Source: Deltaproteobacteria bacterium (GTDB taxonomy: Bacteria; Desulfobacterota; Deferrisomatia; Deferrisomatales; JACRMM01). From it: DNA of 64,000 nucleotides. The DNA lies in assembly GCA_016214985.1 (NCBI GenBank), contig JACRMM010000015.1, positions 62,001-126,000 of the forward strand, given 5' to 3'. This document shows positions 57,770-63,877 of the stretch, piece by piece. Numbering within the stretch: the stretch's first letter is position 1; the number at the start of each line of letters is the position of its first letter. Below the pieces are notes generated by a model. It was not told the origin of the DNA and ran no database searches. It worked only from the letters and a program-made list of their open reading frames with translations. The position numbers were made by a program, and so were the translations under genes.

Positions 57770-58699
57770 ATGGGCCTTCACATCCGCTTGTTCGGGAGCA
57801 TGTGTGTGAGCCTCGCCGCCGGGGAGCCCCCGGTGCCCCTGGGGCGCACGGCGCGCTCGTTGCTCGCCTTCCTCCTCGTGCACCGCCACCGTCTCCACGC
57901 GAGGGAGAGCTTGTCGGGCGTGTTCTGGGGCGACGCGTCCGAGGAGCGAGCGCGCAGTTGCCTGAGCACGGCACTGTGGCGACTGCGGCAGGTGCTGGAG
58001 CCTCCGGGCGTCGCCCGGGGTTCGTGCCTGGTGACGACCCCGACCGGCGATGTCGGCTTCCGCCGGTCCCCGGACCACTGGCTCGACGTGGCGACCTTTG
58101 AGGAGCAGGTGACGCGGGTCACCTCTCGCCCGTTTCACGCCGCCGAGCCGGACCATGCGCGGGGACTGGAGGAGGCGCTCGCCCTGTACGTGGGCGACCT
58201 TCTCGAAGGCCTGTACGACGACTGGGCCCTGCAGGAGCGCGAACGCCTGCGCTCGATGCACGTGGAGAGCCTCGTGTGGCTCCTGCGCTACCACGGGTAC
58301 TTCGGTGCGTATGAGCGGGCGATCGGCTTCGGGCAGGAAGCGCTGCGTTGCGAGCCGACCCGCGAGGAGGTGCACCGGGAGTTGATGCGCCTGCACCTGG
58401 AGGCCGGGCATCGGACCCTGGCGGCCCGTCAGTACGAGGCCTGCCGGCGGGCACTGGACCGGTACCTGGGAGCCGAACCCGCGGACGCGACACGGGCCCT
58501 CTACGAAAGCGCGGTGCGTCCGGCGTGGTCGCCCGTGGCCGGCGGACCTCCGGCAACGGCGGGGGCGGGTGAGCTCGTCGATCACCTCTCTGCAGCGGTC
58601 CGCCGGTTCGAGGAGGCCCGGGGCGAGCTCCAGCGGGTGCTGGAGTTGGTCTCGTCTGCCGCGGCCAACGCGTCGCCGGTACCCAAACGGGTAAATTGA
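57770..58699 (+). CDS. SARP-type transcriptional activator with BTAD domain
   Basis: A 309-residue regulator. Residues 1-95 form an OmpR-type winged helix (IRLFGSMCVSLAAGEPPVPL, SLLAFLLVHRHRLHARESL, ALWRLRQVLEPPG). Residues about 100-250 are the all-helical BTAD domain (LYVGDLLEGLYDDWALQERE, YGAYERAIGFGQEAL-like repeats, AARQYEACRRALDRYLG). A short coiled coil ends the protein. SARPs bind heptameric direct repeats about 11 bp apart; exactly such an array lies just after this gene and before the tail genes, so it likely activates them. Confidence 0.9.
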   Translation: MGLHIRLFGSMCVSLAAGEPPVPLGRTARSLLAFLLVHRHRLHARESLSGVFWGDASEERARSCLSTALWRLRQVLEPPGVARGSCLVTTPTGDVGFRRSPDHWLDVATFEEQVTRVTSRPFHAAEPDHARGLEEALALYVGDLLEGLYDDWALQERERLRSMHVESLVWLLRYHGYFGAYERAIGFGQEALRCEPTREEVHRELMRLHLEAGHRTLAARQYEACRRALDRYLGAEPADATRALYESAVRPAWSPVAGGPPATAGAGELVDHLSAAVRRFEEARGELQRVLELVSSAAANASPVPKRVN

Positions 58700-58721
58700 A
58701 TGACCGATCGGTTCTAATCGC

Positions 58722-58776
58722 GATCGGTGACGGATCGGTGACGCGGCGGTGACGCCGCAGTGACGGGAGCGTGAGA
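58722..58776 (+). promoter_or_regulatory. Five direct repeats at 11-bp spacing (SARP-type operator)
   Basis: GGTGAC at 58726, GGTGAC at 58737, GGTGAC at 58748, AGTGAC at 58759 and CGTGAG at 58770: five six-base boxes exactly 11 bases apart, one DNA turn each. They lie 78 bases before the first tail gene and directly after the BTAD regulator. No clear -10 is visible downstream, as is common for SARP-dependent promoters. Confidence 0.8.
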
Positions 58777-58853
58777 CGCTCGCAGAGGTACCCGCGGCTC
58801 CTTCCGGGGCTCACGGGGTTCGCAACGGGGCAGTCGCTCGGCAGGAGGGGTTC

Positions 58854-59933
58854 GTGGCCAGCATCGAGGAAGACGCCCTGGCAGGGTTGACGTCAAACGT
58901 GCAGGCGCTGCTGCCGGTGGTCGCTGACCCCGAGCTCCGGCCGACCGTGACGCTCGGCGCGGCGCGCGTGACCCCCACCGGCCTCGGCGGGTTCGTCGCC
59001 CCCAGCGACGATCCGCCGGGCGACGTGGATGGGCGCCGGATCGAGGCCTCGGTGCTCGTGACCGTGAAGTCGTCCAGCGCCGGCGCCCTGGGGCCCTCTC
59101 TCGCCGGTGTGACCCGCGCGCTCCTCGGCGCAGACCGTCCGACGCTGCTTGGTCGCGGCATCCACCGCGTGGCGCTCTCCGAGACCGGCACGCTCGTCGC
59201 CGGGCCCGGCCAGCGAGTGCAGCAGGATCTCTCCTTCCGCTTGCTCTATGAGCACCTTCGAATCCCCACGGCGGCCGGAGGGGTCATCGAGACGATCCCC
59301 CTGGACCTGGAGGTCAGCCGCAGCGGGGCGCGCCCGCGGGGTTGGAGCCTGGAGGAGTTCGGGGCCGGGGCCCTCGACCTCTTCGACGTGGTCGACGACC
59401 CCTCGGCGACCACCGCCCGGCCCTCCCAGTGGATCGTGAACCCCGCGGAACGGCGCATCGAGCAGCGCTCCCGGATTCGGGGCGGCACGAACGCCGCGAC
59501 GCCCGCGAAGCCGGGCACGGCCCTGGTCGTCCGCGAGGCCCCCGGGCGGCCGCTCTCCCGCGACTTCTCGCTCCACGCCTGCGTGGCCTCCGACGACGCC
59601 GGCGGAGTCGGGGTCGTGTTCCGCTGGGTGGACGCGGCCAACTACTACTTCTTCCTCATGGATCGCTCCGGGGGGTACCGGCTGCTCGCGAAGAAGGCCG
59701 GAGGCGCGTTCCTGCCCCTCGAGGCGCCGGCGGTCGACGGGACGCGCGCCTACGAGCTGGGCCGAAGCTACGACGTCAAGGTGTCGGCGGTGGGGCCGGA
59801 GCTGCGGGTGTACCTCGACGGCGCGCTCGCGCTGTCGGGTCGAGACGCCTCTCACGGAGCCGGCAGGGTCGGGTTTCTGAGCCGCAACGACAATCGCGCC
59901 TACTTCTACCGCATCGCCGCGGTGGAGCTCTAA
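58854..59933 (+). CDS. Tail terminator-like domain fused to a LamG/lectin-like domain
   Basis: A 359-residue protein. The first 150 residues (LTSNVQALLPVVADPELRPT, ASVLVTVKSSSAGAL, QRVQQDLSFRLLYEH) look like a small tail-completion or terminator protein. The C-terminal 190 residues form a concanavalin-like jelly roll (SLHACVASDDAGGVGVVFRW, ANYYFFLMDRSGGYRLLAKK, VDGTRAYELGRSYDVKV, AGRVGFLSRNDNRAYFYRIA), a fold common in carbohydrate binding. GGAGGGG precedes the GTG start. The fusion could decorate or anchor the tail end; the assignments are by fold only. Confidence 0.6.
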   Translation: MASIEEDALAGLTSNVQALLPVVADPELRPTVTLGAARVTPTGLGGFVAPSDDPPGDVDGRRIEASVLVTVKSSSAGALGPSLAGVTRALLGADRPTLLGRGIHRVALSETGTLVAGPGQRVQQDLSFRLLYEHLRIPTAAGGVIETIPLDLEVSRSGARPRGWSLEEFGAGALDLFDVVDDPSATTARPSQWIVNPAERRIEQRSRIRGGTNAATPAKPGTALVVREAPGRPLSRDFSLHACVASDDAGGVGVVFRWVDAANYYFFLMDRSGGYRLLAKKAGGAFLPLEAPAVDGTRAYELGRSYDVKVSAVGPELRVYLDGALALSGRDASHGAGRVGFLSRNDNRAYFYRIAAVEL

Positions 59934-60002: not shown

Positions 60003-61115
60003 ATGGCTGAGACCTACTCCACGGCAGAGTTCGTCATCCCCGGAACCTACGTGCGCGTGCGCGCGGAAGGACTCATCAGCGCCGGGGGCATCTCGACCGG
60101 AAATCTCGGGGTCGTGGGCACCGCGCAGAAGGTCGTCGACGCAGTGAACGTCGTCGACTACGCCCACACGTACAACCTCTCGGACTACGAGAGCGCGGTG
60201 GCCCAGCTCGGCGCCTACGACGCCTTCGGCTCGGGCGCGAAGCTCCACCTCACCCGGGTGCTGGAGCTGCTCTACCAGAACGGGGCCCGCACGGTGTACG
60301 CACGGCCCCTGAACCTCGGCGCGAGCGACTCCCAGCCGGGCCGGGACGCCTACACCGCAGCCTTCAACGAGCTCGTGAAGGACGACGTGAACCTCCTCGT
60401 CGCGCCCCAGCTCTCCACGGCCGACGCGCTGGCCGTGCTCGGCCCGGTGCTGGAGACCGCGGAGAACAACGGCAAGGACGTGATCGCCGTCGTGGGCGCG
60501 GACGCGGCCAACGTGGCCGCCATTGCGGCGCAGGTGCCCACCAACGACCGGATCATCTTCTGCACGCCCGGTGTTCGCGCCTACGACGCCGCGTTGAAGC
60601 AGGAGGTCGCGCTGCCGGGCCCCTTCGCCGCGGCCGCCGTGGCCGGTCTGATCTCGACCCTGACCCCCGAGGCGAGCCCGACGAACAAGGTGCTCCCCGG
60701 GGTCGTGAAGCTCGCGAGCCGCTACTCCTACGGCGAGACCAAGCAGCTCGTGAACGCCCGGGCCCTGGTGCTGGAGGAGCGCGGCGGTGTGAGGGTGGTG
60801 CGGGGGCTCACCAGCGACGACGCGGCCTTCCGGCAGATCACCACGCGCCGAATCGTCGACTTCGCCAAGGCGGGCATCCGCAAGTCCTCCGACCCTTTCA
60901 TCGGGCGCCTGAACAACCAACGGGTCCGTAAGGCCCTCTATGGCGCCATCGACGGGTTCCTGACGACCATGGTCGTCGATGAGCAGCTCGTGAGCTACAC
61001 CCTGCAGGTGACCGCGAGCCGGCAGGACGAGATCGCGGGGCGCGCGCTCGTCAACGCCGTGCTCCTGCCCACCTTCAGCATCGACTTCATCGCCGTCACG
61101 CTGGTCCTTCAGTAA
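60003..61115 (+). CDS. Contractile tail sheath protein
   Basis: A 370-residue sheath. The N-terminus VIPGTYVRVRAEGLISAGGI and GNLGVVGTAQKV match sheath domain starts, the middle shows a subtilisin-like fold, and the C-terminal RKALYGAIDGFLTTMVV and ...DEIAGRALVNAV segment is the usual sheath tail. It is short compared with many phage sheaths (400-500). AAAGGAGG lies before the ATG. Confidence 0.85.
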   Translation: MAETYSTAEFVIPGTYVRVRAEGLISAGGISTGNLGVVGTAQKVVDAVNVVDYAHTYNLSDYESAVAQLGAYDAFGSGAKLHLTRVLELLYQNGARTVYARPLNLGASDSQPGRDAYTAAFNELVKDDVNLLVAPQLSTADALAVLGPVLETAENNGKDVIAVVGADAANVAAIAAQVPTNDRIIFCTPGVRAYDAALKQEVALPGPFAAAAVAGLISTLTPEASPTNKVLPGVVKLASRYSYGETKQLVNARALVLEERGGVRVVRGLTSDDAAFRQITTRRIVDFAKAGIRKSSDPFIGRLNNQRVRKALYGAIDGFLTTMVVDEQLVSYTLQVTASRQDEIAGRALVNAVLLPTFSIDFIAVTLVLQ

Positions 61116-61133: not shown

Positions 61134-61628
61134 ATGGCAAACGCGAGCGTGTTCACCGGAGCCGACGGCTCCCTTTCCCTTTCCGTCTCCCCGGGCCTCG
61201 AGGGCGAGAAGGCCCAGGCGGTCGTCGAGGGCTTCAACCTGATGAGTGTGGGCCGCGTGCAGAACGTGCGGGTCGAGGTCCACTCGGAGGTGCGCGCCTA
61301 CCACGAGGTCGGCCAGCGCTACGCCACAGAGCTACGTCCCGGCAACGTCACGATCCGGGGCACGATCGGTCGCGCCTACCTCAACGGCGCCATGCTGCGG
61401 CTCCTGCTCGGGGACGCGGCGGACGGCCGGCCGGCGGCGAGCTGGGCGCAGCCGGCGTTCAACGTCACCCTGCTCCTGCAGAACGCGGCGGCCCCGGACG
61501 TGCGAAACACCGTGACGCTGCACGACGTGAAGATCGACAACTGGGTGTACGCGCTGCCCGAGGACGATTTCGTCATGGAGTCCGTGGGCTTCCAGGCCCT
61601 CTACCTCACCGTCCAAGACGAGCCGTGA
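61134..61628 (+). CDS. Tail tube protein
   Basis: A 164-residue all-beta protein directly after the sheath, the standard position of the inner tube. Beta strands such as VRVEVHSEVRAYHEVGQ, LRPGNVTIRGTIGRAYLNGA and VTLHDVKIDNWVYALPEDDF fit tube proteins. GAGGAGG precedes the ATG. It overlaps the next gene by four bases. Confidence 0.8.
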   Translation: MANASVFTGADGSLSLSVSPGLEGEKAQAVVEGFNLMSVGRVQNVRVEVHSEVRAYHEVGQRYATELRPGNVTIRGTIGRAYLNGAMLRLLLGDAADGRPAASWAQPAFNVTLLLQNAAAPDVRNTVTLHDVKIDNWVYALPEDDFVMESVGFQALYLTVQDEP

Positions 61629-62131
61629 CGCTCGCGGCCGAGGAGCTCCTGGCGGGGAGCTCGCTCACGTATGTGGTGGAGGTTCCGGCCTCGGTGCTTC
61701 GGCCCGCTGGCGGAGACGGGAGCGGGGATGGGGGAGGGGAGCCGGGGGTCTCGGGCCTCACGGTGCGCCTGCGGCCCCTGACCGTGCGCGACCTCCAACT
61801 CGTGTGCCGGGCGGCGAAGGAGAGCGACACCCTGCTCGCCACGCTGATGGTACACAGGGCCCTCGTGGAGCCGATCCTCGAGGTCGGCCAGGTGGCGGCG
61901 CTCCACGTGGGCCTCGTCCAGTACCTCCTTCACGAGGTCAACCGCGTGAGCGGCATCGCCGCGACGGCTGAGGAACTCTCGGCCGCGGCCGACGACCCCC
62001 TGGCCAAGGCCGCCTTCGTGCTCGCGCGCGAGTTCGGGTGGACGCCCCACGAGGTGAGCGAGCTCACCCTCGGGCAGGTGCTCCTGCACCTGAAGATGCT
62101 CCGGGAGCGGAGGGCCAGCGATGGTCGGTGA
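61625..62131 (+). CDS. Tail assembly chaperone-like protein
   Basis: A 168-residue protein: a beta-rich N-terminal part (LTVRLRPLTVRDLQLVCRA) and a helical C-terminal part (EFGWTPHEVSELTLGQVLLHL). The composition and its position between tube and tape measure fit the chaperone that coats the tape measure protein. GTG start overlaps the tube stop. Its end overlaps the next gene by 11 bases. Confidence 0.6.
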   Translation: MTLAAEELLAGSSLTYVVEVPASVLRPAGGDGSGDGGGEPGVSGLTVRLRPLTVRDLQLVCRAAKESDTLLATLMVHRALVEPILEVGQVAALHVGLVQYLLHEVNRVSGIAATAEELSAAADDPLAKAAFVLAREFGWTPHEVSELTLGQVLLHLKMLRERRASDGR

Positions 62132-63281
62132 GCCCCGCGCTGCTTCCCCGCCGCGGGGTACCGCCCTGGCGCGGCTCGCCCTCGGGGACCTGCAGGGCCT
62201 GCAGGCCCTGGCCCTGGAGATTCTGGCCCGGGCCGAGGGGGTGAGTCTCCTCGCCAGAGAGGACCCCGCGTCCCTCCCACTCGCCGGCGAAGACCCCTTC
62301 GGCGCCCTGTTCGGGTCGGAGCCGGGTGGCGGCGGGGGGCGGCCGGCGGCGGACTCCCGGGGCGGCCGGTCTCCGGCCCTGGGTGACCTGGGCGCAGGGA
62401 GAGCGGCCGCCCCGGAGGGGATGGCGCGGGAACTGCGGCCGGGCCGGGGCGTCGAGGCTACTCCGAGCCCCGGCCGCACGCTGGGCGTGTTCGGCGCCGG
62501 TTACGGCACGGCCTCTTCCGGCGCCCTGCCGGGGGACATCGCATCGTCGGGTGCCAGCATTCTGGGCGCGAGCCTGGGGCAGCTCGTACAGGTGCTCGCC
62601 GGACCCCGGCCCGCCGCTGCGCTGGAGGCGGCTCGGCGGGAAGGCAGGGCGCATCCCCCCTCCGCGGCGCCCGACGCGCTGCCCACCCGCGGACCTGTCG
62701 CCCTCTCCGCCGCCTCAGAGACGCCGCCTCAGAGGCCCGGGAGCTCCTTCTTGCTCTCGGAGCGCCTTCCCGCTTCTCTCTCGGTGCCGGCTCCGGCCGG
62801 GCCGGCGGGCAGGGGGGAGGGGCTTGGGGCTTCCGGAGCGTCGAGCTCGCGCGCGGGCGGCCGAGGGTCCGAGACGTCCCTGGTGGCGTCGAGGGGGCCG
62901 GCCCTCCCGGCGACCCTCTGGGAGCGCCTCGGAGACCTCGCCGACGAGGCCCTCGTTGCCGGGGACGCGGACCGGAGCCCCGGTGCTCCGGAGGATTCCT
63001 CGGGCGTGGCTCCGGACCGGGTCGGCGCGGACGGCGCGCCGCGGGGGGGACGGCAGGAGCTACGCCGAGGGGCCCCCTCGGACGCGTGGCCCGCACCCGG
63101 CGCCGCCCGCGCCGCGGCGGACCTCTTGGACCGTCGGCCGCCGGCCGTGGCTCCCGGGCCCCGGGGCGGGTTCCTCCCGGAGGGGAGGCCCGCGACGACC
63201 CTCGACCGCGACGAGCTCGCCGAGCTCGTGAACGACGCCCTGGTGCGCCAGGCCCGGCGCCACGGAGTGGACCTCTCATGA
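62121..63281 (+). CDS. Unusual low-complexity protein at the tape-measure position
   Basis: A 386-residue protein very rich in Gly, Ala, Pro, Arg and Ser, with little predicted secondary structure except short ends: LARLALGDLQGLQALALEIL near the start and ATTLDRDELAELVNDALVRQ at the end. Tape measure proteins are normally long helices, so this is either a degenerate/short tape measure, a linker or a secreted-type effector. ATG 62121. Confidence 0.55.
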   Translation: MVGEPRAASPPRGTALARLALGDLQGLQALALEILARAEGVSLLAREDPASLPLAGEDPFGALFGSEPGGGGGRPAADSRGGRSPALGDLGAGRAAAPEGMARELRPGRGVEATPSPGRTLGVFGAGYGTASSGALPGDIASSGASILGASLGQLVQVLAGPRPAAALEAARREGRAHPPSAAPDALPTRGPVALSAASETPPQRPGSSFLLSERLPASLSVPAPAGPAGRGEGLGASGASSSRAGGRGSETSLVASRGPALPATLWERLGDLADEALVAGDADRSPGAPEDSSGVAPDRVGADGAPRGGRQELRRGAPSDAWPAPGAARAAADLLDRRPPAVAPGPRGGFLPEGRPATTLDRDELAELVNDALVRQARRHGVDLS

Positions 63282-63877
63282 AGGTCAAGCCCGTCCTCGG
63301 CGACTGGGAGATCCCGAACATCGCCTACATCGGCTCGCTGGAGCGGCGCGACTTCGCCGAGATGCCGGTACCCGGCAAGGTGGGGAGCGTCTTCCAGGAC
63401 CTCTCGAGCGCTCCCACCCGGGTCGTCATCGCCGGCAGCCTCTTCGGCGACGACAAGCGCGACGAGGTGCTCGAGGCCGTGCGGACGAAGTTCCGGGCCG
63501 GCGAACCTGTGACCTTCGTGGCCGACATCGTCACCGCCACGGAGGTGCAGTACGTGGTGATCGAGGAGCTCCGGTTCGAGGAGAGCGCCGAGGTGCCGGA
63601 TCAGACGGCCTATCAGATCGTCGTGCGCGAGAGCCCGCCGCCCCCGCCGCCCCCGAACCCTCTGGCCGGCCTCGACGCGGGCTTGCTGGACCAGGCCGGG
63701 AGCTTCCTCGACTCGGTGGCCGGCGCGCTCGCCGCCATCGACGGGCTGGGAAGCATCCCCGATTTCGGCAACCCGGTGCCGCCGCTCACGAGCTCGCTCG
63801 ACCAGGTCGAGGGCGCGGCCTCCGGCCTCACCAGCGCCGTGCAGACCCTGCGCGGGCTCTTCGGGATCGGGGAGTAG
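63278..63877 (+). CDS. gpN-like (DNA-circularisation-type) tail protein
   Basis: A 199-residue protein. Residues 1-115 (GDWEIPNIAYIGSLERRDFA, SSAPTRVVIAGSLFGDDKRD, VLEAVRTKFRAGEPVTFVAD) show the pattern of the N-terminal domain of Mu gp43/gpN-type tail proteins. A polyproline linker precedes a helical C-terminus. ATG 63278 overlaps the preceding stop. Its position after the tape-measure slot agrees with Mu order. Confidence 0.6.
   Translation: MKVKPVLGDWEIPNIAYIGSLERRDFAEMPVPGKVGSVFQDLSSAPTRVVIAGSLFGDDKRDEVLEAVRTKFRAGEPVTFVADIVTATEVQYVVIEELRFEESAEVPDQTAYQIVVRESPPPPPPPNPLAGLDAGLLDQAGSFLDSVAGALAAIDGLGSIPDFGNPVPPLTSSLDQVEGAASGLTSAVQTLRGLFGIGE

Follow-up and report, generated by a model that had tools for sequence, protein, structure and literature searches.

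SARP-family activators switch on antibiotic genes in Streptomyces. Promoters of this type carry direct repeats spaced by 11 or 22 bp, with the last repeat 8 bp from the -10 element, and in AfsR the residues T88 and R92 hydrogen-bond specific bases of the afs box (PMC10936776). A second point of reference is the eCIS loci described by Geller et al. 2021, in which BTAD (PF03704) was among the recurring domains and was proposed as an eCIS regulator; the passages of that paper on regulators describe the signals acting on them as unknown (PMC8213781). The locus studied here likewise has a BTAD regulator beside a contractile injection operon, and the sequence-only reading, which had called a SARP/BTAD regulator with a tail-like injection system a new pairing, was thus anticipated by that report.

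The locus lies in a window of 64,000 nucleotides (the whole stretch of DNA that was analysed), from a host read earlier as a probable deltaproteobacterium, an assignment borne out by GTDB (Desulfobacterota) through kinship with Desulfacinum infernum. The regulator gene and the repeats that follow it are:

57770-58699, + strand: small SARP-type activator, 309 aa, with OmpR-like winged helix, BTAD domain and C-terminal helix
58726-58731, + strand: putative operator box 1, GGTGAC (repeat finding and pattern searches)
58737-58742, + strand: putative operator box 2, GGTGAC, 11 bp after box 1 (repeat finding and pattern searches)
58748-58753, + strand: putative operator box 3, GGTGAC, 11 bp after box 2 (repeat finding and pattern searches)
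58759-58764, + strand: putative operator box 4, AGTGAC, 11 bp after box 3 (repeat finding)
58770-58775, + strand: possible fifth box, CGTGAG, the weakest, which may be spacer before the -10

The BTAD domain of the regulator was matched by Pfam above the cut-off (E=2e-22), and an N-terminal Trans_reg_C match of 23.3 bits fell just below the cut-off of 26.2. For the AlphaFold2 model (mean pLDDT 91), the best PDB fold matches were the SARP domain of AfsR (8k60/8hvr, transcription initiation complexes; TM 0.81 on the target) and then EmbR, over ~250 columns, and these two were also the closest solved sequences. An OmpR-type winged helix followed by a BTAD domain is therefore present, the former recognized through the fold match to AfsR and EmbR. 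By its modelled fold the regulator is a small SARP with an extra C-terminal helix (residues 266-300); it differs from AfsR in lacking the NOD/TPR part and in having this long helix. In pairwise alignment, T67 and R71 of its recognition helix (RARSCLSTALWRLR, residues 60-73) aligned with AfsR T88 and R92, and both were invariant in an alignment of 19 related regulators.

The five boxes were re-found at the positions first proposed, with an exact 11-bp period. The array begins 27 bp past the regulator stop codon and ends, as had been described, 78 bp short of the next gene. CGTGAG may not be a true box, since most relatives have 3 to 4 boxes and the -10 position counted from four boxes overlaps it. 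The pattern GGTGACN5GGTGAC with at most one mismatch had three matches in the window, all at this array, with 0.44 expected from shuffling, and three GTGAC units at 11 bp, with at most one mismatch, were unique to the array across all 5.6 Mb of the genome, with no match for the reversed control. Four exact GTGA boxes at an 11-bp period occurred at one further intergenic site in the same genome (G000 C23:38346-38382, L217), where no BTAD gene adjoined and the position expected for the -10 had no -10-like hexamer. This site sits upstream of a possible thioesterase gene.

Conservation of the repeats in relatives with the same gene order had been set beforehand as the test on which the operator claim could fail, and it held, in sheath-bearing loci as well. 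Orthologs of the regulator were gathered by protein sequence only, drawing on 395 genomes from the host's own phylum, on 84,980 scanned species, and on ~900 further genomes of the phyla to which L055, L053 and L058 belong; 21 non-redundant small BTAD regulators with the recognition helix CL[SNA]TA[LI]WRL made up the helix-positive set. GTGA boxes 11 bp apart were found directly downstream of the regulator's own gene, on the same strand, in 16 of the 21, and a motif-free search of the downstream regions returned GTGA at 11 bp in 16/21 and at 22 bp in 17/21 loci. Downstream on the + strand, GTGA pairs at 11, 22 and 33 bp numbered 44, 30 and 13, compared to a mean of 0.58 at other distances, while upstream or on the - strand pairs at 11 or 22 bp were absent from all 21 loci. 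The direct repeats at 11 or 22 bp expected of a SARP target promoter are thus present at the own locus and conserved in relatives. Operator-bearing loci mostly had 3 to 4 boxes, placed on the same strand as the regulator gene and 3' of it, at -24 to +170 bp relative to the stop codon; the 6 to 7 bases between boxes varied from unit to unit while GTGA was kept, and the array is therefore not a plain tandem repeat. Four helix-positive loci (L061, L064, L167 and L057) had no 11-bp boxes downstream.

Some related arrangements were also seen. Just past the BTAD stop, L153 and L167 carry GGTGATCCTTGTGAC, with GTGA boxes 9 bp apart, not 11, followed by CCGTGTC, an odd-spaced operator variant. On a Pararhizobium plasmid (L232), a related BTAD gene has three GTGA boxes, 11 bp apart, upstream and not downstream of it, which may reflect autoregulation; downstream of five plasmid BTAD genes no comparable three-box operator was found. 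The bare pattern of four GTGA boxes was non-specific, most of its matches in 311 Chloroflexota genomes being perfect tandem repeats without a BTAD gene. A sheath search in 59 relatives returned the own copy only, and scans of viral contigs for sheath and regulator gave no match.

In 17 operators anchored on their final exact GTGA, a TANNNT-like hexamer started exactly 11 nt further on, with a summed score of 35 compared to ≤20 at any other offset, and 0 of 20,000 shuffles reached this score at any offset. The hexamers included TACAAT in L054, L055 and L056, and TATAAA, TATATA, TATCGT, TAGGAT and TAGACT in other loci. At the own locus there were two candidates:

58775-58780, + strand: predicted -10-like hexamer GACGCT, weak, 11 nt past the box 4 GTGA, position inferred from relatives
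58786-58791, + strand: alternative predicted -10-like hexamer AGGTAC, applying if box 5 counts

The own site, ambiguous between these two, is among the poorest matches of the set. When the heptamer is taken as GTGANNN, a register that is a choice, 11 nt after the last GTGA equals the 8-bp SARP distance, so that the group has the expected spacing, with a weak site at the own locus. We also considered the boxes as TCACC on the - strand, i.e., in a PhoB/AfsR-like orientation with antisense drive, and rejected this since the -10 lies on the + strand in relatives. The module thus resembles AfsR and the small SARPs of Streptomyces (AfsR, PimR, DnrI and ActII-ORF4) in its winged helix and BTAD domain, its 11-bp direct repeats and its matching -10 distance (PMC10936776, PMC5930380). 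It differs in its 3 to 5 GTGA-centred boxes (CGTT(T/C)ATCG or CGGCAAG in Streptomyces), in the place of its operator between the regulator and the tail or protease operon, and in its hosts, which are Desulfobacterota, Chloroflexota, Gemmatimonadota, Acidobacteriota and Pseudomonadota.

Our main reading, to which we give a probability of about 0.87, is that the small SARP-type activator encoded next to the 11-bp repeats uses them as its operator and would recruit RNA polymerase to the tail-operon promoter. The repeats are very likely a SARP operator, and we infer that the regulator binds them and activates, rather than represses, transcription of the tail operon. Regulator monomers would line up on one DNA face, each on its own box, beside a poor promoter with a -10 that would lie at the fixed 11 nt from the last GTGA; the bound monomers would replace the -35 contact and recruit RNA polymerase, and the downstream tail operon would be switched on. 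A regulator that used the same operator to repress the tail operon or to control its own gene would fit the location of the sites between regulator and operon. We regard this as improbable, since the -10 signal lies 3' of the boxes, on the operon strand and at a fixed distance, which is the geometry of SARP activation, and since all operator-bearing loci have the boxes 3' of the regulator gene and none has them ahead of it.

The operator motif and the recognition helix encoded beside it co-occurred. In a sister clade with the helix LRQ[AT]LW, GACG/AGACG pairs at 11 bp were found in 5 of 11 members, with AGACG-type repeats downstream of the BTAD gene in L159, L161, L172, L180 and L183; in this clade T67 is replaced by Q, and R71 is mostly replaced (Q, H, L, sometimes R). 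Two CGTGA boxes at 11 bp were seen in another clade (L076, L078, L093 and L096). On the tree, the helix/operator labels were grouped, requiring 15 changes compared to 27.6 with shuffled labels. One AGACG clade member, L161, has a sheath downstream. L163 also precedes a sheath and may bear yet another motif (CCTNAGGATC).

PhoB-type regulators bind 11-bp direct repeats as well, and the boxes might be bound by another regulator of this PhoB/OmpR type instead of the adjacent BTAD protein. PhoB shares the winged-helix fold, though it was a weaker match to the regulator than AfsR and EmbR in both sequence and fold comparison, and the tracking of the motif with the neighbouring helix (GTGA with CLxTALWRL, AGACG with LRQxLW) makes this less probable still than repression or autocontrol. 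The least credible alternative, a neutral 11-bp minisatellite with a BTAD neighbour by coincidence, has parallels in perfect 11-bp GTGA tandem arrays elsewhere (e.g., in G503 and G302) and is set aside given the varying bases between conserved GTGA boxes, the same placement in 16/21 orthologs and the -10 signal at a fixed distance.

Downstream of the boxes, the window contains the start of a long co-directional operon:

58854-59933, + strand: first operon gene, 359 aa, an ORF with no Pfam or PHROG match
60003-61115, + strand: contractile tail sheath (PF04984, PF17482; phrog_279 tail sheath, E=2.9e-28)
61134-61628, + strand: probable tail tube, assigned from its position and size only, with no Pfam or PHROG match
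61625-62131, + strand: operon gene (ORF), 168 aa, no assigned function
62121-63281, + strand: operon gene (ORF), 386 aa, no assigned function
63278-63877, + strand: operon gene, 199 aa, with a weak baseplate-hub match (phrog_184, E=0.004)

The gene at 58854, previously called the first tail gene, carries no tail annotation, and the first recognizable tail gene is the sheath at 60003. From 58854 the operon extends beyond the window to ~C42:148607 (window-equivalent ~86607) and there encodes a 1125-aa coiled-coil-like protein, likely the tape measure, a 1869-aa subtilase (S8 protease), a GPD hub, an OB spike, PAAR, gp25, baseplate J, a Reg_prop-repeat protein, genes of no assigned function and a terminal caspase-like protease. 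Like an eCIS, it thus combines sheath, hub, spike, PAAR, gp25 and baseplate J in one operon, with no capsid or terminase domain among its Pfam matches. It differs from an eCIS in that AAA ATPase (Pvc15), Pvc16_N and eCIS_core were absent from the Pfam matches of the proteins scanned, some operon genes being matchless; among relatives, Pvc16_N was found in L054 and L055, and AAA and eCIS_core in L055. For these reasons we call the operon contractile tail-like: its gene content identifies it as a contractile injection-type tail, and canonical eCIS status does not follow from the genes scanned. The caspase-like Peptidase_C14 gene that closes it (L012:11766-12608 = C42:147765-148607) has a close homolog (E=6e-126) in a Syntrophus MAG (L081:1256-2092), the first gene after a GTGA operator on a 3-kb contig with no tail gene on it.

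A sheath followed the operator at the own locus and at six other distinct loci, from a Gemmatimonadetes MAG (L053; Gemmatimonadota), Chloroflexota (L054, L055, L056 and L062) and a Desulfacinum MAG (the near-identical pair L059/L060, counted once). In Desulfacinum infernum, L057 is 99% identical to L059 up to 40 bp past the stop; beyond that point it has neither the operator nor the tail genes. In ~10 other operator-bearing loci, protease or caspase cassettes or genes of no assigned function came next: a subtilase and radical SAM cassette (L065/L066), a papain-like protease (G004/L071), genes including a subtilase (L075 and L097), the L081 caspase, a transglutaminase-like protein (L058), and genes of no assigned function (L084, L143 and L174). 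The sequence-only reading of a SARP-type regulator with an 11-bp repeat operator ahead of contractile tail genes is well supported, and the idea of a tail-specific switch was rejected, since the same regulator-operator pair precedes these non-tail cassettes and the module is therefore not dedicated to tails.

On balance, we think it probable that the module is a portable cassette, present in at least five phyla, in which a small SARP with a GTGA/11-bp operator and promoter drives contractile injection systems in some loci and protease/caspase cassettes in others, and that recognition follows a readable code in which CLxTALWRL (T67, R71) would read GTGA and LRQxLW would read AGACG. In Geller et al. 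2021, the passages on BTAD, SARP, regulators and transcription contain no description of an operator, of promoter geometry, or of a subgroup or specificity rule (PMC8213781). The literature searched on BTAD/SARP regulators with contractile injection systems, which covered few subscription papers, yielded that study and one review that cites it, and no operator was described. The operator, the promoter geometry and the helix-operator correspondence appear to be new. They would extend SARP-style promoter activation outside actinobacteria, and the correspondence predicts which regulator binds which box. Because activator and boxes recur in several phyla, with a predicted promoter at a fixed distance, a switch for some injection machines is now directly testable: the operator is concrete, the promoter predicted, and expression of the neighbouring activator could turn on such operons experimentally.

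Finally, a small ORF of ~95 to 120 aa (F.VR.W.E...WRG) with no Pfam match was a recurrent first gene downstream of these BTAD regulators (L058:1063-1347 and L174:2433-2732; also after the operator in L075, L084, L153, L163 and L167). In Aquabacterium terrae, a 1631-aa protein combining subtilase, peptidoglycan-binding, OmpA-like and tyrosinase parts is encoded downstream of a GTGA operator (L097:13819-18714).
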